From the NCBI RefSeq assembly GCF_014692495.1, contig NZ_JACOIJ010000001.1, positions 62,001 through 126,000 of the forward strand: a stretch of DNA of 64,000 nucleotides, in the 5' to 3' direction. The position numbers and the translations under genes are program-made. Shown here in pieces: positions 53,687-64,000 of this stretch. The number at the start of each line of letters is the position of its first letter. Position 1 is the first letter of the stretch. The DNA is from Sphingobacterium litopenaei. GTDB lineage: Bacteria > Bacteroidota > Bacteroidia > Sphingobacteriales > Sphingobacteriaceae. The notes under the pieces were generated by a model. That model saw only the letters and a list, made by a program, of their open reading frames with translations. It made no database searches and was not told the DNA's origin.

Positions 53687-53720
53687 TAAGAGGCCTATAT
53701 ATAAAAATATAGACCTCTTA
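53687..53720. terminator. Bidirectional hairpin after yceI
   Basis: A 14-pair stem with one mismatch, covering 53687-53700 and 53707-53720, followed by T6. It includes the hxlR stop codon and serves the two convergent genes. Confidence 0.7.
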
Positions 53721-54083
53721 TTTTTTGTCAAATAAAGTTTTTCGGTGATTAGTGCCCCAATTTACTAATTGTGTTATTATCGTTTGTAAGCTTTTTCCGT
53801 AAGGCGTAATTTCATATTTTACGGATACCGGTTTTGTGTGGGGAGGTTCTCTAAAAATAAGCCTATTTGTTTCCAATGTTTTAAGCTCTTTGCTCAAAAC
53901 TTTTGCAGATAACCCTGGAATATCATGCTCTATTTTCTTAAATGTATTTACTTCATGCTCTCTAGTTGCCAAGTAGTGAATAATAAGTAATGTCCATTTG
54001 CCTCCAATAATTTCTAAGGAGTCCTGTAAGGCGAGTAAATCGGCTGTACAAGCTGGTGGATCTGAAATTGGCTTTGAAATCAT
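53718..54083 (-). CDS. HxlR family transcriptional regulator
   Basis: A 121-residue winged-helix DNA-binding protein. ALQDSLEIIGGKWTLLIIHYLATREH begins the HxlR domain. IPGLSAKVLSKELKTLETNRLIFREPPHTKPVSVKYEITPYG contains the recognition helix and wing, and a Cys near residue 12 is the usual redox-sensitive position. HxlR proteins respond to electrophiles or redox stress and bind inverted repeats. A perfect inverted repeat overlaps the start codon of this gene (54082-54103), suggesting autorepression. It lies just downstream of the xylan locus on the same strand, but a terminator separates them, so it is not shown to control that locus. Confidence 0.93.
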   Translation of the reverse strand: MISKPISDPPACTADLLALQDSLEIIGGKWTLLIIHYLATREHEVNTFKKIEHDIPGLSAKVLSKELKTLETNRLIFREPPHTKPVSVKYEITPYGKSLQTIITQLVNWGTNHRKTLFDKK

Positions 54084-54151: not shown

Positions 54152-54982
54152 CTAATGATGATATATATTGAGAAGTATTTTAGCGTAATTTTTACCCAGT
54201 TGTCGATAACCAGCTGGACTAAAATGAAGTCCGTCTGGAATACCTTCACAATCTTTGGAAGAAACTACATGCGCATTCTGAATTGTTTGGGGTAAGGTTT
54301 GGATAATAGCATTCATGCTAGCACATTTTCCTCCCTCCTCAGCAGAAAGCATTTCTCCCGCTAGGATAGGGGTGTTTTCCGCTTTTAGATTAAGGTCATT
54401 CAATAAATTTGTATACACTCTATTTACCTTATTTGGCCAATCTCTATCGCCTGTATTGGACTCACCTTGATGTAGCAAAATTCCTTTAATGACACCTGAT
54501 TTTTGAGCAATCTTAGCCATTTCCACTAATCGAGCATACGGATTATTGTCATAGGCTGACAACATGCCTTTCATCCAATTCGGTGCTTTTTCTACGTAAG
54601 TAGCCGTGCTGTCTTTATCAAATAACTGTATATGACATCCACCTACCGATACATTGATAATGCCGATGCGCACATTGGGAGCGGTGTTTTCCGCTAGAGT
54701 TTTTGCAAAATAATCAGCTGGAGTAAGTCCTGTATGACAACGCGTAAGGGGGGATTGTGCAATATACCATTCTCCTTTTTTACGATTTAATTCTGGACAG
54801 TCTACGCTTTGCAATAGCATTACGCGTTTATCAGTAACGGTGTCTTGAGGTTCGAATTTTCCATGGCCTTCCATATTAGATTGTCCAAAACATAGGTAAA
54901 TATGAAAGTTTGGATCTTGGGCATTCACCAAGCTATAGCTTGTAATAGAAATCAGAAGAAATATTTGCTTTATAAATTTCAT
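54152..54982 (-). CDS. SGNH carbohydrate esterase (sialate O-acetylesterase/CE6-like)
   Basis: About 276 residues from the ATG at 54982; the open frame extends to 55030, but only this start gives a signal peptide (KFIKQIFLLISITSYSLVNA). The nucleophile block is IYLCFGQSNMEGHGKFEPQD (Ser). GIINVSVGGCHIQLF and GILLHQGESNTGDRDW are blocks II-III. The catalytic Asp/His are in GIPDGLHFSPAGYRQLG. Acetyl xylan esterases of this family remove O-acetyl groups so that xylanase can act. It follows the GH10 gene, separated by a terminator-like hairpin, so its level may differ from that of the xylanase. Confidence 0.88.
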   Translation of the reverse strand: MKFIKQIFLLISITSYSLVNAQDPNFHIYLCFGQSNMEGHGKFEPQDTVTDKRVMLLQSVDCPELNRKKGEWYIAQSPLTRCHTGLTPADYFAKTLAENTAPNVRIGIINVSVGGCHIQLFDKDSTATYVEKAPNWMKGMLSAYDNNPYARLVEMAKIAQKSGVIKGILLHQGESNTGDRDWPNKVNRVYTNLLNDLNLKAENTPILAGEMLSAEEGGKCASMNAIIQTLPQTIQNAHVVSSKDCEGIPDGLHFSPAGYRQLGKNYAKILLNIYHH

Positions 54983-55012
54983 TCGAAAAGTCTTAAGTTT
55001 TTTAAATTGTTG

Positions 55013-55066
55013 AAAAAAAGGGAGGAGCATGAATCTACCTCCCTTCCAATGACTGGCTCAGTCATT
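55013..55066 (-). terminator. Hairpins and T tract between xylanase and esterase genes
   Basis: On the minus strand there is first AATGACTG/CAGTCATT (55059-55066 with 55048-55055), then GGGAGG/CCTCCC (55038-55043 with 55020-55025) followed by seven T (55013-55019). It could end most transcripts after the GH10 gene or act as partial attenuation of the esterase. Confidence 0.6.
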
Positions 55067-55084
55067 ATATTTATCACAAGGTTC

Positions 55085-57250
55085 TTATTTCATTTTGCCT
55101 AAAGCTTCTGTAACCGCTTTATATGCTGGTTTTCTTACGAAACCTTCTGTCCAAATACCAATAGGCTCACCTCTTCTCCAGAATGAATATTCATTGTCTG
55201 GACTATCTAATGGACTCCAAATGGTAATACCGTATTGTTGTGCTTTCGGAATGATTTCGAAATACTTTTCAATTACAAACTTGTACATATCAGCTTGTCT
55301 AGCATACATCTCGGCAGTAGCTTGAGGTGTTTTTACACCTACACCGATATCTAACTCCGAAATTTTGATAAGTTTGCCCGTAGCTGCCAATAATTGGAAC
55401 ATACTGACAATATTGTCTTTGTTCGTATTGATATCAATGTGCATTTGTGTACCAATACCATCTACTTTTGCACCTTTGCTTTCCACATATTCCACATAGG
55501 CAATCAGCCCTTTACACTTATTGCCACCGCCCTCTAAGCCGTAGTCATTAATGAAAAGTAAATCATTGGTATTACCGTATTTACGTGCAAACTCAATAGC
55601 TTTGACAGCATAATCTTTGCCCATATAGTCTTGCCAGTAAAATTCATCATCCGCCATTTCAGCTTTTCCAATACCCGTTTTCAAAGCATATTGATCTGGC
55701 CAATCCGACATTGGTTCATTTACGACATCCCAAGCTTTCACATATTCTTTAGTGGTCGTCATCATGCCTTTGATAAAATCCTCAAGTGCATTCGTGATGA
55801 TATCTTTTTTCTCTTCAGGTGTTTTTTCAATTACATTACCGCCCATACCACCGAAACCTTCGCCATCAGCTGATAATACGCGAGATGAATTGTTACCCCA
55901 GCCTATCCATCCATCTATTCCATTCTCAAAGTCTCCGTTTCCAATGATATTTGTATTGCTACCTGCTTTTACCAATTTGACATTGTCTACGTAAATAGTA
56001 CCATCATAATGTCCGAAATTGAAAATAAAGCGGTTGCGTACAGCGGTAGTTGTCAGTTTCAATTCAAATTCTTGGTAATCTGTCGTTAAAGCCACGGATC
56101 CGAAGCTGTTGCCTTGATAATCCGAGGTGCTTTGTAAGTCTGCACCTAATGTACCCGCTTTGCTACCTTTAGCTGCTAATGTCAATACGTATTCTGTATT
56201 ATTTTCAATACCAGAAATATCAAAGGCCGCCTGTGCTTCCCACGTGTTTACCACCGATGGGTTTATCATTTTTAAAGCAAATCCTTTTTCAATAGGAGCA
56301 CTTCCGCCACTACCTTCTTCATTATATTTTTCAACAGTAAAATTGTCAAAATAATATGTCGTCGCAGTTTTACCTAAATTGAAAGCTATCGTGGTACAAT
56401 TTTCGGTGTCGCTACCAATGTTAATTTCTCTTTCAAATTTCACCCATTCACTTGTTGTTTTGAATGAACCGAAGAAATCCCAGTGTTTATAAGAATAAGG
56501 AACGGTATGCGCTTGAGAACCGAATTCAGCCGGAGCATCCGACTTTGCATACATTGTGAATCTGTATTTTTCACCCAATTTTGTTGCTGCTGGGAATTTA
56601 ATGAATAACTGCGTATCCCAATCATTTGCTCTTACTTCAGCATTTACTAATTTTAGAGCACGACCTTCTCCACCTTCACCTTGTCCAGCGGCTGTAAATG
56701 ATACCACAGCATTCGTGTTAAATTCATAATTGCTATTGTCCGCGGACTCAAAATTATTTGATGTGATCACATCCCAAGTGGGGCTTCCTGAACCAGGAAG
56801 TTTGATAGGTGCAATTAATTTATTTAGGTATGCTGCATTTTGTCCAGAATGCCAAGTTAAGGTATGACCAAATATAGCCACATTGTTTTCTTTAGCTGTT
56901 TCAATTAACTTTTCAACCCGTGAAAAATCCATTGTTCCATCCGCTTTCACGATGGAAGAGTGTTTCATCTCATAGCCCATCACCATTTCATTAAAGTTGC
57001 GATTTACTAATCTGTACATCACACCTTTGTTGATATAGTCATCGATATTAAGTGCTACTCCTAATTTGAAATTTGGATTTGCATTTTGATCGATATAGGA
57101 AATTAAAGGGTCATATGAATTAATATCTTCTTGTGCGATTACACTTTCGGGTTTTTCAGCAAAGTAGTCAAGAAACTCGGGTTTTGCGCAGGAGGAGAGT
57201 AGTAGACTCACCATTAATCCATAACCTAATTTTGTATGTAAACGTTTCAT
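55085..57250 (-). CDS. xyn10C: GH10 endo-1,4-beta-xylanase with inserted carbohydrate-binding modules
   Basis: A 721-residue surface lipoprotein (signal ends LLSSC, Cys21) that cuts xylan. The GH10 barrel begins at about residue 45 (FKLGVALNI) and reaches FGHTLTWHSGQ (129-137). It is then interrupted by about 330 residues holding two jelly-roll CBM4/9-like modules (about 158-310 and 315-460). The barrel resumes and has the acid/base Glu512 (VVNEPMSDW) and nucleophile Glu632 (ISELDIGVG), ending near 721. Insertion of CBMs in GH10 is known in Prevotella Xyn10C and Bacteroides xylan loci, whose gene order matches this one. Confidence 0.95.
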   Translation of the reverse strand: MKRLHTKLGYGLMVSLLLSSCAKPEFLDYFAEKPESVIAQEDINSYDPLISYIDQNANPNFKLGVALNIDDYINKGVMYRLVNRNFNEMVMGYEMKHSSIVKADGTMDFSRVEKLIETAKENNVAIFGHTLTWHSGQNAAYLNKLIAPIKLPGSGSPTWDVITSNNFESADNSNYEFNTNAVVSFTAAGQGEGGEGRALKLVNAEVRANDWDTQLFIKFPAATKLGEKYRFTMYAKSDAPAEFGSQAHTVPYSYKHWDFFGSFKTTSEWVKFEREINIGSDTENCTTIAFNLGKTATTYYFDNFTVEKYNEEGSGGSAPIEKGFALKMINPSVVNTWEAQAAFDISGIENNTEYVLTLAAKGSKAGTLGADLQSTSDYQGNSFGSVALTTDYQEFELKLTTTAVRNRFIFNFGHYDGTIYVDNVKLVKAGSNTNIIGNGDFENGIDGWIGWGNNSSRVLSADGEGFGGMGGNVIEKTPEEKKDIITNALEDFIKGMMTTTKEYVKAWDVVNEPMSDWPDQYALKTGIGKAEMADDEFYWQDYMGKDYAVKAIEFARKYGNTNDLLFINDYGLEGGGNKCKGLIAYVEYVESKGAKVDGIGTQMHIDINTNKDNIVSMFQLLAATGKLIKISELDIGVGVKTPQATAEMYARQADMYKFVIEKYFEIIPKAQQYGITIWSPLDSPDNEYSFWRRGEPIGIWTEGFVRKPAYKAVTEALGKMK

Positions 57251-57279
57251 AATTCTAATTGATTAATAATTTTAGAATA

Positions 57280-58314
57280 TTAAGGTTTAAGAGCTACATT
57301 AAATGTTTCCATCTTAACACCTCTATCACGCATAACTAATGTATCTTTTGTGGATACACTCATTTGTGCCATTTCTATTTGGTATTCTAGATATAATCCA
57401 TCTCGATCTGTATTACCCCAACTGTTTTTTTCTCCTTTTTTGACAAAAGCTCCTCGACCAGTGGCGGTTACTCCATTTGTTGCTGAGCTAATAGTGCAAT
57501 TGTTATTATTGTCAAATGCTAACATCAATTCGATGTTGATATTTGTGCCATCTACATCTTTGAAGGTCAACGGTAGTTTTGCGTTTTGACGAGATGCAGT
57601 TATTAAATTTTTAACTTCATCTTTTTCGACAGAAGCATTTCTACGGTTTAATGTTTGGTTCAAGGAATTGTTTCCATTCTTGCCTACTATTATATCTTGA
57701 CCACGTCTAAGGTAGTTACCATGCCAAGTATTGATATATTTTATAGCATAAAATGTATAATCTTTAGGTTGAACTTCCCAATCATCTGCAACTGCTCTGC
57801 GTTGAAGGCTTCCAATTTTAGGTGTACCGGATAATATAGAATCTGCATTAGTCACATTGGTAATACGTAAGGGTAATACGTATGTGGTATTAATGGATTT
57901 GGGATCTGCAAAGAATGCATCGGTTAATTGTACTTCCACACCTCCTGAAGGCTTTCCTTGTGGAATAATCATCTGATTAGAAGCTAATGTATAATAATTT
58001 GATGGTAAAGGGAGTACATCGCCTCCCTCAGGGCTATATATTATATTTTGTGTCAACGCATTATCAACGACGAAATCAACTTTGACGTCTTCTTTTGTAC
58101 TGTATACACCACCAGTAGTAGCCATTACATTGATTTTACCTTGATTATCCAAAGATGTATCAAAAATATCTTCACCCAATGTGATGGTACGTACAGGATA
58201 TTGGTAGGCAAAGTAAACCGTTTGATATTCGTAATCAGGAAATTCCCAATCTTGATTTTTGCAGCTTGTAATAGCCAACAATAAGGTCGCATAAATTATA
58301 TTTATTCTTTTCAT
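57280..58314 (-). CDS. xusE: XusE-like surface lipoprotein (DUF1735/DUF5627)
   Basis: A 344-residue lipoprotein (signal ends AITSC, Cys18). The N-terminal half resembles DUF1735: YQTVYFAYQYPVRTITLGEDIFDTSLDNQGK and LPLRITNVTNADSILSG. The C-terminal domain (about 190-344, GNYLRRGQDIIV, YLEYQIEM) resembles DUF5627. In Xus-type xylan loci this position holds a glycan-binding surface protein. It probably binds xylan at the cell surface alongside the SusD protein. It lies 18 bp after susD and 29 bp before GH10. Confidence 0.8.
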   Translation of the reverse strand: MKRINIIYATLLLAITSCKNQDWEFPDYEYQTVYFAYQYPVRTITLGEDIFDTSLDNQGKINVMATTGGVYSTKEDVKVDFVVDNALTQNIIYSPEGGDVLPLPSNYYTLASNQMIIPQGKPSGGVEVQLTDAFFADPKSINTTYVLPLRITNVTNADSILSGTPKIGSLQRRAVADDWEVQPKDYTFYAIKYINTWHGNYLRRGQDIIVGKNGNNSLNQTLNRRNASVEKDEVKNLITASRQNAKLPLTFKDVDGTNINIELMLAFDNNNNCTISSATNGVTATGRGAFVKKGEKNSWGNTDRDGLYLEYQIEMAQMSVSTKDTLVMRDRGVKMETFNVALKP

Positions 58315-58332
58315 GAGTTCAAATTTGAAATG

Positions 58333-60099
58333 TTACCAACCATTATTTTGTTGAAGGTTATTATACTTTAATATTTCACTGTAAGGAATTGGGCCATACT
58401 GCATATATGGTTCGAAAACACGGTTTTCTACCGTAATTACATTATAAGTATTGTTTTCTATGCTAATGCCTTGAGCAGGAATTGTTAGATTTTCGTTCCA
58501 TCTGCGCAAATCCCAGAATCTGAATCCTTCAAAACATAGTTCTAAACGTCTTTCATTACGAATTAACTGACGCATTTGATCTTTGTTGTTTTTTACCTGT
58601 TCTAAATATGGATCTCCATTCGTAGTTCCTACACCAGCGCGTGTACGAATAGCTTTGATAATATCATAGGCTGAAAACGAGAATGAACCTCGACCAGTAG
58701 GTCCCCAAGCTTCATTTGCAGCTTCGGCATAAGCTAAATAAATTTCTGTCATGCGTAATCGGGGAGTGACATGGTATTGACCAGATACATTTGATGGATT
58801 TAAATTTACATCCTGACGTAAAAGCTTACGCATATAATAGCCCGTACGTGTAGATGTCTCAACTTTGTTGAGTCCATCGTTAGTTGGACTATTTACCGCG
58901 GTATTGATAGCGGTATTATTTACTCCAGAAGTAGACCCATTGACCAAGATATAATTTTTTAATCTTGGATCTCTATTATCATAAGGGCTATTTGCATTAT
59001 AGCCGCTTGCCGCATCATTAATTGGATAACCATTAGCCATTGGAAATGCATCTACTAAATTTTGTGTAGGATTTAATCTTCCTCGCCCAAATAAGGTCGG
59101 AGGAAAGTGATCTGCCTCTAAGGAGGAAGAAAGGTCACCTCTGTCAACACGCCAGATAATTTCTGCTGTGTTTCTTCCGGACTCCATCTGATTTACACTT
59201 GCTGGTAAATAGAATAGTGCACCTTGAGGATCAACACCAGATATGCCACCTTTTTGCTGTATAACATTCCCAGCATAATTTGCTGCTTGTTCCCATTTAG
59301 CTGTATTACCATCATTAAAAGCAGGACTAGCTGCTAAAAGAGCTGCTTTAGCGCGAATAGCTTGGCTAATTCTTTTGGTCATACGAAGTCTGAATTTTTC
59401 GCCAAAAACTTGGTTATAGTCTGTTAAGTTTACACCTAAGGATTGGTATTTAGCGGGTATTTGGCTTGCATTTGAAATATCTTCAAAATCAAGCGGTAAA
59501 AGTTCGTCTGCTTTATCTAAATCTGCATAAATTTGTTGCATACATTCCTCAAAAGTGGCTCTAGGTTTATTAAAGTCAGATTCTGAAGTTTCGTATTCTA
59601 GTACAATTGGTATTCCCAATACTTCACCGCTACTTGTTTTGCCAGCATGTGTTTGCAATAAATGGAACATAAATAATGCGCGTAAGCCTAATGCTTCACC
59701 TTTCATCCGATCATTGAACATCGAATTAATAGGAGCAGAGGATGACCACTCCACTTTATCTTGAATGGATAGAAAATTATTAATGTATTGAATTGCTGAA
59801 CGACTGTTTCTCCATTGTTCTAAAGGATTATTCATGGCAGTCCATTGACCCGTAGCAATTTTTAAATAATTGCTCGCGCGATCATTTGTTACCGCATCAT
59901 CTGTAGCTACATCATTGAATGACCAACTATTTGTAGGTACTCTGTTATAGCCGTTGAGTAAGATACCTTGTGCATATAAAGGTCTTGTATATGCAGTTTC
60001 AATATCTAGAAAATTTTCGATTGAAGGTGTAAACATATCTTCACATGACGTGAATGCTATAGTCGATGTAACACCTAATATGAATAGTAATTTTTTCAT
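58333..60099 (-). CDS. xusD: RagB/SusD glycan-binding lipoprotein (XusD-like)
   Basis: A 588-residue surface lipoprotein (signal ends FTSCED, Cys19; the acidic residues just after resemble a surface-export signal). SusD features are the tetratricopeptide-like helices with LRALFMFHLLQTHAG, the TYATEIYLAY-like LRMTEIYLAYAEAANEAWG, IRTRAGVG and the C-terminal LIRNERRLELCFEGFRFWDLRRW. It lids the SusC-like transporter encoded upstream and captures xylo-oligosaccharides. It is 21 bp after susC and 18 bp before the XusE-like gene, in a tight operon. Confidence 0.92.
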   Translation of the reverse strand: MKKLLFILGVTSTIAFTSCEDMFTPSIENFLDIETAYTRPLYAQGILLNGYNRVPTNSWSFNDVATDDAVTNDRASNYLKIATGQWTAMNNPLEQWRNSRSAIQYINNFLSIQDKVEWSSSAPINSMFNDRMKGEALGLRALFMFHLLQTHAGKTSSGEVLGIPIVLEYETSESDFNKPRATFEECMQQIYADLDKADELLPLDFEDISNASQIPAKYQSLGVNLTDYNQVFGEKFRLRMTKRISQAIRAKAALLAASPAFNDGNTAKWEQAANYAGNVIQQKGGISGVDPQGALFYLPASVNQMESGRNTAEIIWRVDRGDLSSSLEADHFPPTLFGRGRLNPTQNLVDAFPMANGYPINDAASGYNANSPYDNRDPRLKNYILVNGSTSGVNNTAINTAVNSPTNDGLNKVETSTRTGYYMRKLLRQDVNLNPSNVSGQYHVTPRLRMTEIYLAYAEAANEAWGPTGRGSFSFSAYDIIKAIRTRAGVGTTNGDPYLEQVKNNKDQMRQLIRNERRLELCFEGFRFWDLRRWNENLTIPAQGISIENNTYNVITVENRVFEPYMQYGPIPYSEILKYNNLQQNNGW

Positions 60100-60120
60100 G
60101 TCTTATCTATTAGTCTTGTT

Positions 60121-62985
60121 CTAGAATAGAGCCTTAACGCCAAAGTTGAAAAATCTGGTTTGTGGTGTACTACCCACTGATAGCTGCATAGTTTCTCTTT
60201 CTTTAGCAAAAGTCATTAGATTGAAACCATTTACATAAGTGCCTAACTCACGAAGAATTCCCTTGCCCAAAATAGATTTAGGAAAATCGTATGATATCTG
60301 GACTTTGCTTAAATCAAAACGATTTGTACTATACATCCAGAAATCAGAAGCTCTATAATTATTATCACTATTGTTAGTAGTCAATCGGGGATAAGTAGCG
60401 GTCGTACTAGTCTCCGGAGTCCAACGATTACGAACGACTTCTGAATATTTGTCTTCCGCATCAACCCAGAAATAAGAATTATTACGCAAAGCATTAGCAC
60501 CATTACGACTTGTCGCGACAGCGAACAAGGTTAAGTTTTTCCATTTGGCAGTAATATTGAATCCTAAAGAGAAAGGCGCACCGGCCCATCCTCCTTTGCC
60601 GAGATAAATTTCATCACGTGTATCAATTGTACCATCACCGTTTTGGTCTATGTATTTGATGTCACCAGGTCTCACTTCACCAAATGATGAAGTAGCTGAA
60701 TTATCTATGTCGCTTTGATCTCTATAGAATCCATTACTTTGGAGCCCCCAAATAGCATCCAATGGTTTTCCTGTACGGTTTTGGTAAGCAAATTCAAATA
60801 TCTCATCACGTTTAGAAGCTTGGGTGTCATAATAAAGTCCATTCACTCCTAAAGAAAGACTGCTAGAACTATTAAAAGATTTATTAATATTAATTCCAAA
60901 ATCAACCCCCTTACGTTCATCTATATTATAATTCACATATGGTAAATCAGAATATACAGGCCAGTATGACATAAAATACATAGGATATATGGTACTTGGC
61001 TGGGTCAATAAACCATTCATCTGATTATAGAAATAAGTTGCATTATAACTGATTAAGTTATTAAACATATTGGCTTCAAAGCCAAAGCTAAACTCTCTAC
61101 GTTTCGGGTAAGTCATATCTTTATTATCTCCACGCACACGATCAAAAGAATGTACAAGTTGACCATCTGCCCAACTGTACCATGCACCTTCTTGATAGGT
61201 ATAATAGCCTTGATACATATAGAATTGCTCAATATCCACGTCTGTATTCACTATACCAGCAGAAGCTTTAAATCGAAGATCATTAAAAATGCCTCCTTTC
61301 ATAAATTCTTCTTCACTTAATCTCCACGCTAAGGATAGTGTAGGGGAGAAGGCTTTACGTTTACCTTCCGGTAATTTTGCAGAATGCGGCAATGCTCCGC
61401 TGAAGTCAGCATAATATTTGTTTGCAAAATTGTAACCCAGATGTAAGCCTAAGTTTGCATTACTTTGCTTATGATATTCTGCTGATCGTGTTATTTGAAA
61501 TGCATTAGCCAGAAGAATCGCGGACACATGATGATTGTCGTTATATGTACGGAAATAATTAAGCCTAGCATTCATGCCAATTGTTTGACGATAAATACTA
61601 CCTCCAATATTCTGAACACCGTTTCTACGATCTTCGCCATATTTTGTCAAACTGCTAATCAAATCTTCTCCATTATAATTATTCCATGCGGCTTGGTAGA
61701 CTGCATAGGTATTATTGTACGATTGATTGTATTGATTTTGATAATCAATAGCTAAGGCTGTTTGAAAAGTAAGTCCTTCCGTAATTCCTTTCAAATCAAA
61801 ATCTAATCCTGTATTAAATTGAAATTGCCTATTCATATGACGACTGCTTCCACCAGAATATATAGTGGCAAAGGCATTAGTTTGATCGAGTTGGCTTCCA
61901 CCTAATAAATACTGTCCATTTACTAAGAAGTTGGTGGTATTTACATAAGTCCAAGAGTTCTCATCTGCTTCCTCGAGCATACTAATGGGAATAAGTGGTG
62001 AGAAGCGATGTGGTCTACCAGTCGCTGCTGCTGCCCAATAGTCCGTGTTTACACCTTTTTGGGTGTAGAAGCTAGCAGAAGCATCAACATTAAGTGACAT
62101 GATGCTATTAAGTCTAGAATCAATGTTTCCGCGCATATTGAATCTATTAGATGTATTTCCCTTCGCTTCACCAAAATTTAAAAGTGATCCGGCCGACCAA
62201 AAACCAAAATTTGTATAATATTTAGTTTTGTCACCTCCTCCAGAAACTTCAGCTGTGGCGTCATAGCGATTGAAGCTGTTCTTGATATAATCCGAAGAAT
62301 AATAGTCTACATTTGGATATCTATAAGGATTAATTCCGACTGCATGATGATATATAGTTTCTTCACTATATAGGTTAGGTAGTCCATCATTTCTTCTGGC
62401 CTCATTATATAATGTCATATATTCGGCAGATCCTAAATATTTTGGATAGCTAATTGGCGTATTAATACCCGCATTCGTACGGATATTAATCTTTTGATTA
62501 TCTTCCTGTCCGCGTTTTGTAGTAATATATATTACTCCTTTAGATGCTAAACTTCCATATAACGCAACTGCATTAATTCCTTTCATTACAGAAATTTCTT
62601 CGATCTCTGTAGGCATTACATTATTAGCGTCTCTTGGAAAACCATCTACCAATAATAGATATCCCCCAGTTCCCCAAATATTACCATTGTATCCTGGAAT
62701 AAAGGCATCCAAATTGTCTAAGCTGTAAGTGGTGTAATTTTTATTTAATAGGTTATTAATATTGATGGCGCTTACTTCGCCCATTACATCTTTTTTCTTT
62801 ACTTTACGAAAAGCTACTTGAACCAATTCGGTACTATCTGTATACAAACTATCTTGCAGGGCAATAGAAAAAGATATATTATTTGGGTGTGCAAATAGGT
62901 ATATTCCTGGAGAAGCTAATATTCCCATGGATGCAATACTTAAGCACACCGCTTTCTTTATGTTTTTATACTTCATTGTCTTCAT
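60121..62985 (-). CDS. xusC: SusC/RagA TonB-linked outer membrane transporter (XusC-like), short N-terminus
   Basis: A 954-residue TonB-dependent transporter. After a signal region (about 1-45), a TonB-box-like segment ELVQVAFRKVKKKDVMG (54-70) leads into the plug: GTGGYLLLVDGFPRDANNV and EIEEISVMKGINAVALYGSLASKGVIYITTKRG. A large barrel follows, ending FFNFGVKALF. The usual SusC N-terminal carboxypeptidase-regulatory-like domain of about 80 residues is absent. It imports xylo-oligosaccharides captured by the SusD partner. Gene order susD(partial)-susC-susD marks it as the second SusC of a tandem pair. Confidence 0.93.
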   Translation of the reverse strand: MKTMKYKNIKKAVCLSIASMGILASPGIYLFAHPNNISFSIALQDSLYTDSTELVQVAFRKVKKKDVMGEVSAININNLLNKNYTTYSLDNLDAFIPGYNGNIWGTGGYLLLVDGFPRDANNVMPTEIEEISVMKGINAVALYGSLASKGVIYITTKRGQEDNQKINIRTNAGINTPISYPKYLGSAEYMTLYNEARRNDGLPNLYSEETIYHHAVGINPYRYPNVDYYSSDYIKNSFNRYDATAEVSGGGDKTKYYTNFGFWSAGSLLNFGEAKGNTSNRFNMRGNIDSRLNSIMSLNVDASASFYTQKGVNTDYWAAAATGRPHRFSPLIPISMLEEADENSWTYVNTTNFLVNGQYLLGGSQLDQTNAFATIYSGGSSRHMNRQFQFNTGLDFDLKGITEGLTFQTALAIDYQNQYNQSYNNTYAVYQAAWNNYNGEDLISSLTKYGEDRRNGVQNIGGSIYRQTIGMNARLNYFRTYNDNHHVSAILLANAFQITRSAEYHKQSNANLGLHLGYNFANKYYADFSGALPHSAKLPEGKRKAFSPTLSLAWRLSEEEFMKGGIFNDLRFKASAGIVNTDVDIEQFYMYQGYYTYQEGAWYSWADGQLVHSFDRVRGDNKDMTYPKRREFSFGFEANMFNNLISYNATYFYNQMNGLLTQPSTIYPMYFMSYWPVYSDLPYVNYNIDERKGVDFGININKSFNSSSSLSLGVNGLYYDTQASKRDEIFEFAYQNRTGKPLDAIWGLQSNGFYRDQSDIDNSATSSFGEVRPGDIKYIDQNGDGTIDTRDEIYLGKGGWAGAPFSLGFNITAKWKNLTLFAVATSRNGANALRNNSYFWVDAEDKYSEVVRNRWTPETSTTATYPRLTTNNSDNNYRASDFWMYSTNRFDLSKVQISYDFPKSILGKGILRELGTYVNGFNLMTFAKERETMQLSVGSTPQTRFFNFGVKALF

Positions 62986-63012
62986 AATTTAATGAATGGA
63001 TCATCCTCCGGA

Positions 63013-64000
63013 TTACCAGCCTGGATTTTGATAAAACTCAGGATATAAATTCACATCCGATACTTTAAGTGGTAACCAATAATGTTTGGAAGAAAAATTT
63101 CTTTCCAATATCACATTCTCTCGAATATTTACAATACGGTTATTTGTTGGATCTTCGGGGTCAAATGATGCTCTGTCGAATTCTACCGACGTCTTTAAGG
63201 TATATGGTCTTTCGATTAATAATAGCCATCTTCTTAAATCATTAAAACGGTGTCCTTCATATGCTAATTCCACCGCGCGTTCGCGTCTTAACTCATCCAA
63301 GAATGTAGACACTGAACTTTGAAACTTTTGATGCACAGGGGCTACACCAGCGCGCTCACGAATAACATTTACGGCATCCAACGCTGTTTTACTAAAGTTT
63401 GATGATTTGCCACTAATACTGTTGTTTCCCATTAAAGCAGCCTCTGCGTACATTAAATACACATCAGCAAGCCGTAAATAGGGTATGTAAATATTCATAG
63501 CGTATGAGTAATCGAAATGCCTGTCGTAGTTATTGGCAGCCAACGTCGTAAACTTTCGTAAAGAATAACCTGTCCGAGACCCATTTTGAATACTTCTATA
63601 TGATCCTCCTGTGTATAATTGCGCGTAGCGTCTGAGATTAGGATCCATATCAGTTTCCGTAATATTTCCAGTAACCACTTTCACGCCGTCAAATAGTATG
63701 TCTGTATAGAATCTAGGATCTCTATTTTTCCAAGGATAATTTGGATCATACCCAGATTCTGGATCAGCTTTAGTAATGTCCTTTATTGGTAATCCATTTG
63801 CCATACCATAATTGGCATGTACATAGTTTGCTGTAGGATTGAATTTTATTGCGTCACCTTCGGAAATTAAACCAGGGAGGTATTGTTTACTGGTATTATA
63901 ATGGGTGTCGTTACCATTATTATAAGGTCCTCGAAAAATAGCCTCCGTACTACCTGGCAAAGCCCAGTTTTGATTAATTGTACGGAATACGGTATGAATA
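63013..64000 (-). CDS. xusB: RagB/SusD glycan-binding lipoprotein (XusB-like), N-terminus beyond window
   Basis: The visible 328 codons are the C-terminal part of a SusD protein and stay open to the window edge; an internal TTG at 63960 is not the start. Typical segments are YIPYLRLADVYLMYAEAALMG, NVIRERAGVAPVH, FLDELRRERAVELAYEGHRFNDLRRWLLL and the closing LYPEFYQNPGW. It precedes the SusC gene by 27 bp on the same strand. In Xus loci a first SusC (XusA) would lie just beyond the right edge. It is only distantly similar to the other SusD here, so the two pairs likely bind different chain lengths. Confidence 0.9.
   Translation of the reverse strand, partial: IHTVFRTINQNWALPGSTEAIFRGPYNNGNDTHYNTSKQYLPGLISEGDAIKFNPTANYVHANYGMANGLPIKDITKADPESGYDPNYPWKNRDPRFYTDILFDGVKVVTGNITETDMDPNLRRYAQLYTGGSYRSIQNGSRTGYSLRKFTTLAANNYDRHFDYSYAMNIYIPYLRLADVYLMYAEAALMGNNSISGKSSNFSKTALDAVNVIRERAGVAPVHQKFQSSVSTFLDELRRERAVELAYEGHRFNDLRRWLLLIERPYTLKTSVEFDRASFDPEDPTNNRIVNIRENVILERNFSSKHYWLPLKVSDVNLYPEFYQNPGW

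Follow-up and report, generated by a model that had tools for sequence, protein, structure and literature searches.

Xylan utilization (Xus) loci of Prevotella and Bacteroides share the core gene order xusA-xusB-xusC-xusD-xusE-xyn10C, as set out in parts of two earlier reports (PMC7848910, PMC3747994). In Bacteroides ovatus, the core xylan cluster of the polysaccharide utilization locus (PUL) PUL-XylL contains an inactive member of glycoside hydrolase (GH) family GH10, according to a section of PMC4855328. Rogowski et al. (2015, PMC4491172), in the sections that deal with these loci, describe BACOVA_03431 of PUL-XylL as a GH10-related surface lipoprotein that has lost its nucleophile, does not cleave xylan, and binds glucuronoxylan and corn xylan, and they knew no other natural inactive GH10. 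In the same sections, the SusD of PUL-XylL binds glucuronoxylan and corn xylan, that of PUL-XylS binds wheat arabinoxylan and glucuronoxylan, and the solved structure 3N91 is BACOVA_03430. For PUL 43 of B. xylanisolvens XB1A, a section of PMC4855328 states that a hybrid two-component system regulator (HTCS) is required for growth on xylan. Here, we analysed a stretch of 64,000 nucleotides from Sphingobacterium litopenaei (genome of 3.85 Mb, 94 contigs). This stretch, the window, covers C11:62001-126000, and its contig runs on past the window edge. At its right end, the window carries the 3' part of a Xus block which, taken alone, is ordinary and was correctly recognized in a preliminary description. 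A second complete block lies upstream of it, and both belong to a xylan locus of about 65 kb, from about C11:116152 to C11:181431. From the sequence, we consider it likely that this is one locus with two tandem Xus blocks, of which one cuts xylan and the other captures and imports it.

On the one hand, the locus resembles the Xus loci of Prevotella and Bacteroides in gene order, SusC/D pairs, XusE, and a CBM4-interrupted GH10. On the other hand, it has two tandem complete blocks, an esterase that closes the second, and a Sphingobacterium host. With PUL-XylL, as far as the cited sections describe it, it shares the SusC/D pairs, a 3N91-like XusE, a GH10-like lipoprotein without catalytic residues, and GH30, GH43, GH95, GH97, and GH115 in the locus; it differs in that this set is stacked on a second, active block and that no GH3, GH31, or GH98 turned up in the locus proteins scanned. 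BACOVA_03431 is described there as having lost the nucleophile, whereas the GH10-like protein of the upstream block has lost both catalytic Glu residues and carries a different set of site residues, and it is shorter (567 aa) than the Bacteroides relatives seen (mostly 736-743 aa). PUL-XylS, in the sections cited, is similar in having a surface GH10 with inserted carbohydrate-binding modules (CBMs), a second GH10, GH67, GH43, and an HTCS, but in B. ovatus it stands apart as a locus that has a regulator of its own, while here genes of the XylS kind share a locus with a XylL-like set. The locus combines many families that B. ovatus, by the account in PMC4491172, divides between PUL-XylL and PUL-XylS. 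PUL 43 of B. xylanisolvens XB1A, as partly described, likewise has tandem SusC/D, a CBM4-containing GH10, GH43, GH95, GH115, and an HTCS, but only one tandem set.

The upstream block, xusABCDE with a GH10-like gene on the minus strand, reads away from the window as GH10-like lipoprotein, XusE, SusD, SusC, SusD, and SusC. The GH10-like gene (C11:130651-132354) is the last of the xus core, 17 bp past XusE, and is followed by the 557 bp that separate the two blocks; gaps within the blocks are 3-29 bp, with 54 bp ahead of the esterase. Its product matches PF00331 with 85.8 bits and contains an insert, as does the GH10 of the window block. In the alignment to that window GH10, by which all active-site positions were placed, its acid/base Glu is replaced by Gln and its nucleophile Glu by Ala, and there are more substitutions at the -1/-2 subsite positions, where we presume both the assignments and the numbering (K47, E127, E233) from general GH10 usage. 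Judged by these residues, the protein is a GH10 fold that cannot perform GH10 catalysis. A lipobox-like LFGAC can be read in it, and it may be a surface lipoprotein. For the S. cavernae orthologue, the structure model (mean predicted local distance difference test score, pLDDT, 87.1) keeps the fold and superposes on 1us3, Cellvibrio Xyn10C, with a Z score of 36.0 and a root-mean-square deviation of 2.7 over 327 residues.

This loss is shared by relatives. In a family search at E 1e-20, matches came from 82 of 301 Sphingobacteriaceae genomes, and among 31 GH10-type proteins recovered, 23 have both catalytic Glu residues and 8 have neither. For the active-site comparison, 33 loci from named genomes were added, and the 72 sequences were reduced to 60 by dropping duplicates and three others (two weak matches and L096, whose nucleophile position is masked); neither the active nor the dead group includes the Arachidicoccus gene or three canonical GH10s. 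All 42 active-type GH10s have N, E, N, Y, Q, H, E, and W at eight active-site positions, K, H, and W at three further positions in all 41 that cover them, and D (41) or E (1) at another. The 13 full-length dead GH10s have, at the eight positions, Y in 11, Q in 12, T in 12, T in 11, E in 12, A or S in 11, no Glu, and R in 12; G replaces an H of the active type in 12. Of 84 columns that are near-invariant in the active group, the majority residue is kept in the dead group at 62 and switched at 22, and 11 of these 22 fall among 12 active-site positions chosen beforehand. The catalytic part has 21 switched columns with sufficient data, of which 12 are fixed again in at least 11 of the 13 dead sequences, compared with 33 of 142 other changed columns (Fisher test, p 0.003, descriptive only, because it assumes independent columns and the sequences are related by descent). 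The dN/dS ratio (nonsynonymous over synonymous substitution rate) of the dead GH10 is 0.06-0.13 in five of six pairs, the sixth being saturated, and that of the active type is 0.05-0.06 in three of three; these values are approximate because dS is high.

Considering the re-fixed site, the low dN/dS, and the fold kept in the orthologue model, the upstream gene looks like a maintained gene with a rebuilt site rather than a decaying one. Random decay was set aside on the low dN/dS and the site conservation. It might be asked whether the rebuilt pocket (Tyr, Gln, Thr-Glu-Thr, Glu, Arg) makes this protein a new enzyme that performs another reaction on decorated xylan. Its new residues are largely uniform among the 13 dead sequences (Y in 11, Q in 12, T in 12, E in 13, T in 11, E in 12, and R in 12), and one Glu replaces Gln, which adds an acid, while the other replaces Asp and the Arg replaces Trp. 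We nevertheless regard a new activity as quite improbable, since the residue at the former nucleophile position varies (A in 5, G in 2, S in 1, and a gap in 5 of 13) and since the sole tested naturally inactive GH10 at this operon position was, in the sections cited of PMC4491172, inactive on xylans and bound them. In Arachidicoccus ginsenosidivorans (L078:10001-11697; L230:8499-10204), an L-type block (the label that we use for the upstream type, after PUL-XylL) has its GH10-like gene split into two open reading frames (ORFs) and a shortened SusC; this GH10-like protein keeps the acid/base Glu and has lost the nucleophile.

Within the genome, the window and upstream blocks are 51, 47, 43, 52, and 44% identical in the first SusC, first SusD, second SusC, second SusD, and XusE, while the upstream block is 60-64% identical to its counterpart in another genus, Desertivirga, over the same genes. 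Accordingly, the two blocks are not recent copies of each other. S. cavernae and S. bovistauri also have the two in tandem, and so does S. bovisgrunnientis within the extent of its locus sequence; Desertivirga has both types about 12 kb apart. S. corticibacterium, S. gobiense, and S. griseoflavum have an L-type block followed by an esterase, with no Xyn10C-type block (the window type) within the regions read.

An element, ACATTCTTANCNNTCATTTNGACATTCTT, lies upstream of both blocks and is followed in both, after 28 bp, by CTTTGATATACAATTATAAAC. Its pattern was derived from these two sites and therefore matches both perfectly by construction; it occurs exactly twice in C11:62001-172000 (110 kb), where nothing else comes within 6 mismatches, and was not found ahead of the plus-strand enzyme genes in that interval. 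The best matches in 10 random sequences of like composition had 6 to 8 mismatches. Related sites are found ahead of both blocks in S. cavernae and ahead of the second block in S. bovistauri, whose first block has only words shared with the element. The HTCS beside the upstream block is a natural candidate to bind the element, and one HTCS would probably switch on both blocks through it. The common element and the common gene order would also be expected if the upstream block were an old duplicate with a decaying xylanase, both blocks doing the same job. Such redundancy would agree with the faster change of the dead GH10 (77% identity between this genome and S. cavernae, against 86% for the active GH10) and with the broken Arachidicoccus copy. 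We find it improbable, because 13 of 14 dead-clade genes (from this genome and 13 named genomes) are single full-length ORFs, the dN/dS is low, the new site residues are common to Sphingobacterium, Desertivirga, and Niabella, and the SusC/D lines of the two blocks diverged before these families.

In the blocks sampled, the state of the GH10 largely follows the lineage of the transporters. The sample of 86 Xus blocks, drawn from Sphingobacteriaceae, Chitinophagaceae, and Bacteroidales-like genomes, consists of a first set of 34 and a further 52 from 60 fetched regions, of which 8 yielded no block. In a FastTree analysis of the joined SusC/D alignment of all 86, 17 L-type blocks form a clade with local support 100; a model-based tree of 34 blocks gave the same split, and trees of the four single SusC/D genes all reproduce it as one branch. 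The name is apt since the Bacteroides-like members show the PUL-XylL arrangement: their XusE is like 3N91 (515 bits in G1423), most have a degenerate GH10 of 737-743 aa, and GH30 adjoins in the one block scanned for it, G1316. In the L-type clade, the GH10 is degenerate in 17 of 17 blocks and lacks at least one catalytic Glu in 16; the remaining one, L284, has both Glu residues and has lost the surrounding subsite (L213 and L284 are one gene, labelled active in the GH10 tree and degenerate in the block tally). The other 69 blocks have 65 active-type GH10s, 3 degenerate ones (Pedobacter SYSU D00535, G1361, and G1378), and 1 that is unreadable, which gives 17/17 in the clade versus 3/68 readable elsewhere; L096 appears degenerate only through masked letters and is excluded from the count. 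L259, an active block, adjoins the L-type clade in the tree, with a weak placement (support 91, long branch). As observations apart from this, G1361 (L223:5570-7315) and G1378 (L280) are another line of degenerate GH10s, which lies within the transporter clade of the Xyn10C type in Bacteroidales-like genomes, and L081, from a metagenome-assembled genome labelled Clostridium sp., has a Xus block that groups with Muribaculaceae, probably through a labelling or binning error.

The above tally is biased, because the 86 blocks had been found through their GH10. In a check free of this bait, the L-type XusC was searched in the 301 Sphingobacteriaceae genomes and the two best candidates per genome were scored. 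The matches at E 1e-150 or better fall into two clearly separate sets, 16 genes with 56-100% identity and the remainder with at most 48%. The 16 L-type blocks have a dead GH10 in 7, no GH10 in 9, and an active GH10 beside XusE in none. A profile from 163 sequences found no GH10 below E 0.1 in the 9 stretches without one (about 19.5 kb each), while it recovered both GH10s of L011 as a control, and Pfam GH10 was absent from the neighbouring protein in 9 of 9. These neighbours are GH115, GH43 (three times), GH31, GH3, SusC, a secreted CHU_C protein, and a rotamase. The idea that L-type blocks always keep a dead GH10 is rejected by these 9. The rule for Sphingobacteriaceae, as read from these blocks, is that an L-type block has no active GH10 of its own at the surface, rather than that it needs a dead one.

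The GH10 genes themselves were probably inactivated repeatedly. Duplicates and sequences under 480 aa were removed (193 to 163) and active rows thinned to 68, which left 95 sequences in the tree. In this tree, a dead clade of Sphingobacteriales/Chitinophagaceae (93/95) stands apart from a Bacteroides dead clade (99/91), each main clade sits among active GH10s of its own side, and G1361 and G792 are single cases elsewhere. Joining the two main dead clades was rejected in an approximately unbiased (AU) test (p 0.008; 25 rows, 14 Sphingobacteriales/Chitinophagaceae and 11 Bacteroides), in which the group was defined after the tree had been seen, long branches are involved, and L222, L166, and L114 were left out. 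Dead-site residues also differ between the Sphingobacteriales and Bacteroides groups (NGWYQTETEAAR versus TGSGESNTLHDS), as do the lengths of most members (547-584 versus 736-743 aa). In G792, the GH10 of an L-type block (L229:13981-15669) retains only the nucleophile Glu, with Asp at the acid/base position and an H changed to Q, and it is sister to an active GH10 of a Xyn10C-type block; it is possibly an intermediate of inactivation.

It is possible, though we think it doubtful, that a single ancestral inactivation gave rise to the dead GH10s of both Bacteroides and Sphingobacteriales and that fast evolution misled the GH10 tree. The SusC/D trees unite the L-type blocks in one clade, and the XusE data are compatible with a single clade, which the AU test did not reject (p 0.215). 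The split of the GH10 tree with its AU result, the different site residues and lengths, and the position of the G792 GH10 all speak against a single event. Likewise, one clade of all inactive GH10s, which XusE does not reject, is unsupported by the GH10 tree and its AU test. The blocks of Pedobacter SYSU D00535 and G792 mix transporter and GH10 signals. Exchange of GH10s between blocks followed by separate inactivation would fit best.

In terms of function, we propose that the window block would bind weakly decorated (simple) xylan and that, after cutting this xylan at the cell surface, it would take up the long xylo-oligosaccharides. The L-type block has its own SusC/D pairs and XusE, and its catalytically dead GH10-fold lipoprotein would most likely act as a surface glycan-binding protein that holds xylan on the cell, so that the block may import more heavily decorated fragments cut by other enzymes. 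The ligand data for the B. ovatus SusD proteins and inactive GH10, in the cited sections of PMC4491172, support this division between the blocks. By its probable mode of action, the upstream GH10-like protein would be of an already known kind, given the precedent of BACOVA_03431.

Several observations weigh against this proposal. The GH10-like protein is missing from 9 of the 16 L-type blocks in the family and is therefore dispensable in those blocks. Most sugar-subsite residues of active GH10s are replaced in the dead GH10, so the way in which the enzyme binds xylan need not apply to the dead barrel. The inserted domain may be responsible for binding, or a glycan other than xylan may be the ligand. 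In B. ovatus, BACOVA_03430, the XusE of PUL-XylL, bound none of the tested xylans according to the cited sections of PMC4491172, and accordingly not every L-type surface protein binds xylan. The link to PUL-XylL rests on gene order and XusE similarity, with 3N91 as the only B. ovatus sequence compared. Finally, Pedobacter SYSU D00535 pairs a GH10 of the dead clade, which groups with Sphingobacterium, with Xyn10C-type SusC/D. The block concerned (L059:3359-15750) may record an exchange of GH10 genes between block types.

The window block reads xusA-xusB-xusC-xusD-xusE-GH10 on a single strand, as does the upstream block. The preliminary description had read the genes inside the window as susD (partial), susC, susD, an XusE-like gene, GH10 with inserted CBMs, and an esterase on the minus strand of a Sphingobacteriaceae-like genome; Pfam and TIGRFAM matches agree with this order, which equals the published Xus core as given in parts of PMC7848910 and PMC3747994, and the closest named relatives of the operon are Sphingobacterium. 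In detail, the SusD-like XusB (63013..64000) is cut by the window edge, with PF07980 on 63013-63999, and its complete copy of 633 aa lies at C11:125013-126914 (L011:10013-11914). The SusC-like TonB-dependent transporter XusC (60121..62985) matches TIGR04056 with 435 bits from model position 155 and has no CarboxypepD_reg-like N-terminal domain in Pfam, unlike the XusA-type protein of the upstream block. The SusD-like lipoprotein XusD (58333..60099) matches PF07980 and PF14322, and the XusE-like lipoprotein (57280..58314; PF18620, PF08522) is a relative of 3N91 (280 bits), its sole solved relative found. The active-type, Xyn10C-like GH10 lipoprotein (55085..57250; PF00331, 182.8 bits) has its PF00331 matches at residues ~61-135 and ~481-715, and the inserted CBM claimed for it is borne out by a CBM_4_9 match of 49 bits in the intervening CBM4-like insert. 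It retains both catalytic Glu residues in alignments (512 and 632), and its structure model is weak in the inserts (mean pLDDT 72). The block is closed by a SASA/SGNH-type carbohydrate esterase (54152..55030; PF03629, 122 bits), which contains GQSNMEG and DGLHFS and has a weak relative in 1zmb ('acetylxylan esterase related enzyme'). Directly downstream, at the 3' end of the locus, an HxlR-type regulator (53718..54083, minus strand; PF01638) is a flanking gene and a putative member only. As a separate observation, the SusC of the XusC type lacks the CarboxypepD_reg-like domain in both blocks (60121-62985; L012:1211-4063) and that of the XusA type has it; a plug-end motif was located at 125-206 in XusC (30 of 38 rows) and at 227-272 in XusA (18 of 19 rows).

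Beyond the window edge, a first SusC had been expected, and the contig carries it in full (XusA, 1055 aa, C11:126926-130093, minus strand), ahead of the complete SusD. GH43, GH67, and GH115 had also been predicted there, and all three are found. Only the number of transporters had been underestimated: one further SusC was expected, and the two blocks together have four SusC/SusD pairs. Past the upstream block comes a divergent HTCS of 1372 aa. The plus strand then carries transaldolase, two transketolase halves, a double esterase, GH95, xylulokinase, xylose isomerase, four GH43, a SASA protein, a 708-aa protein, GH115, a major facilitator superfamily transporter, a canonical GH10, GH43, GH67, GH30, GH97, and GH43. 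We take the transketolase, xylulokinase, and isomerase to be such from their sequences. The 708-aa protein (L013:12533-14659) has no Pfam match, a weak GH43 likeness by BLAST, and a relative with 74% identity encoded by the S. gobiense locus.

In summary, one inactive xylan-binding GH10, BACOVA_03431, was already known from the cited sections of PMC4491172, and our literature searches (pseudoenzyme GH10, inactive GH10, Sphingobacterium xylan loci) found no earlier report beyond it among the papers listed; the sections of PMC7815789, PMC8631079, PMC11892949, and PMC9522356 that bear on the subject hold none of an inactive GH10 or a Sphingobacterium xylan locus. New here are the link between a transporter lineage and the absence of an active surface xylanase, the probable repetition of the inactivation, and the stacking of both block types in one locus. 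The inactive GH10 recurs, is tied to one transporter lineage, seems to have been reached more than once, and is seen in several bacterial families, which makes it testable when a polysaccharide locus abandons surface cutting and keeps capture alone. We also put forward, tentatively, that an old Bacteroidota-wide xylan SusC/D line exists without an active surface GH10, in which any retained GH10 was inactivated repeatedly and independently and, in Sphingobacteriales/Chitinophagaceae, the dead site was rebuilt as a conserved pocket with its own ligand or chemistry. An annotation as 'GH10 xylanase' in such loci can be wrong. Because cutting and non-cutting blocks adjoin behind the same upstream element, the tandem Sphingobacterium locus offers a clean test bed. 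If the tentative idea of an old xylan SusC/D line is true, the transporter lineage rather than the enzyme would decide between surface cutting and capture alone in a xylan locus.

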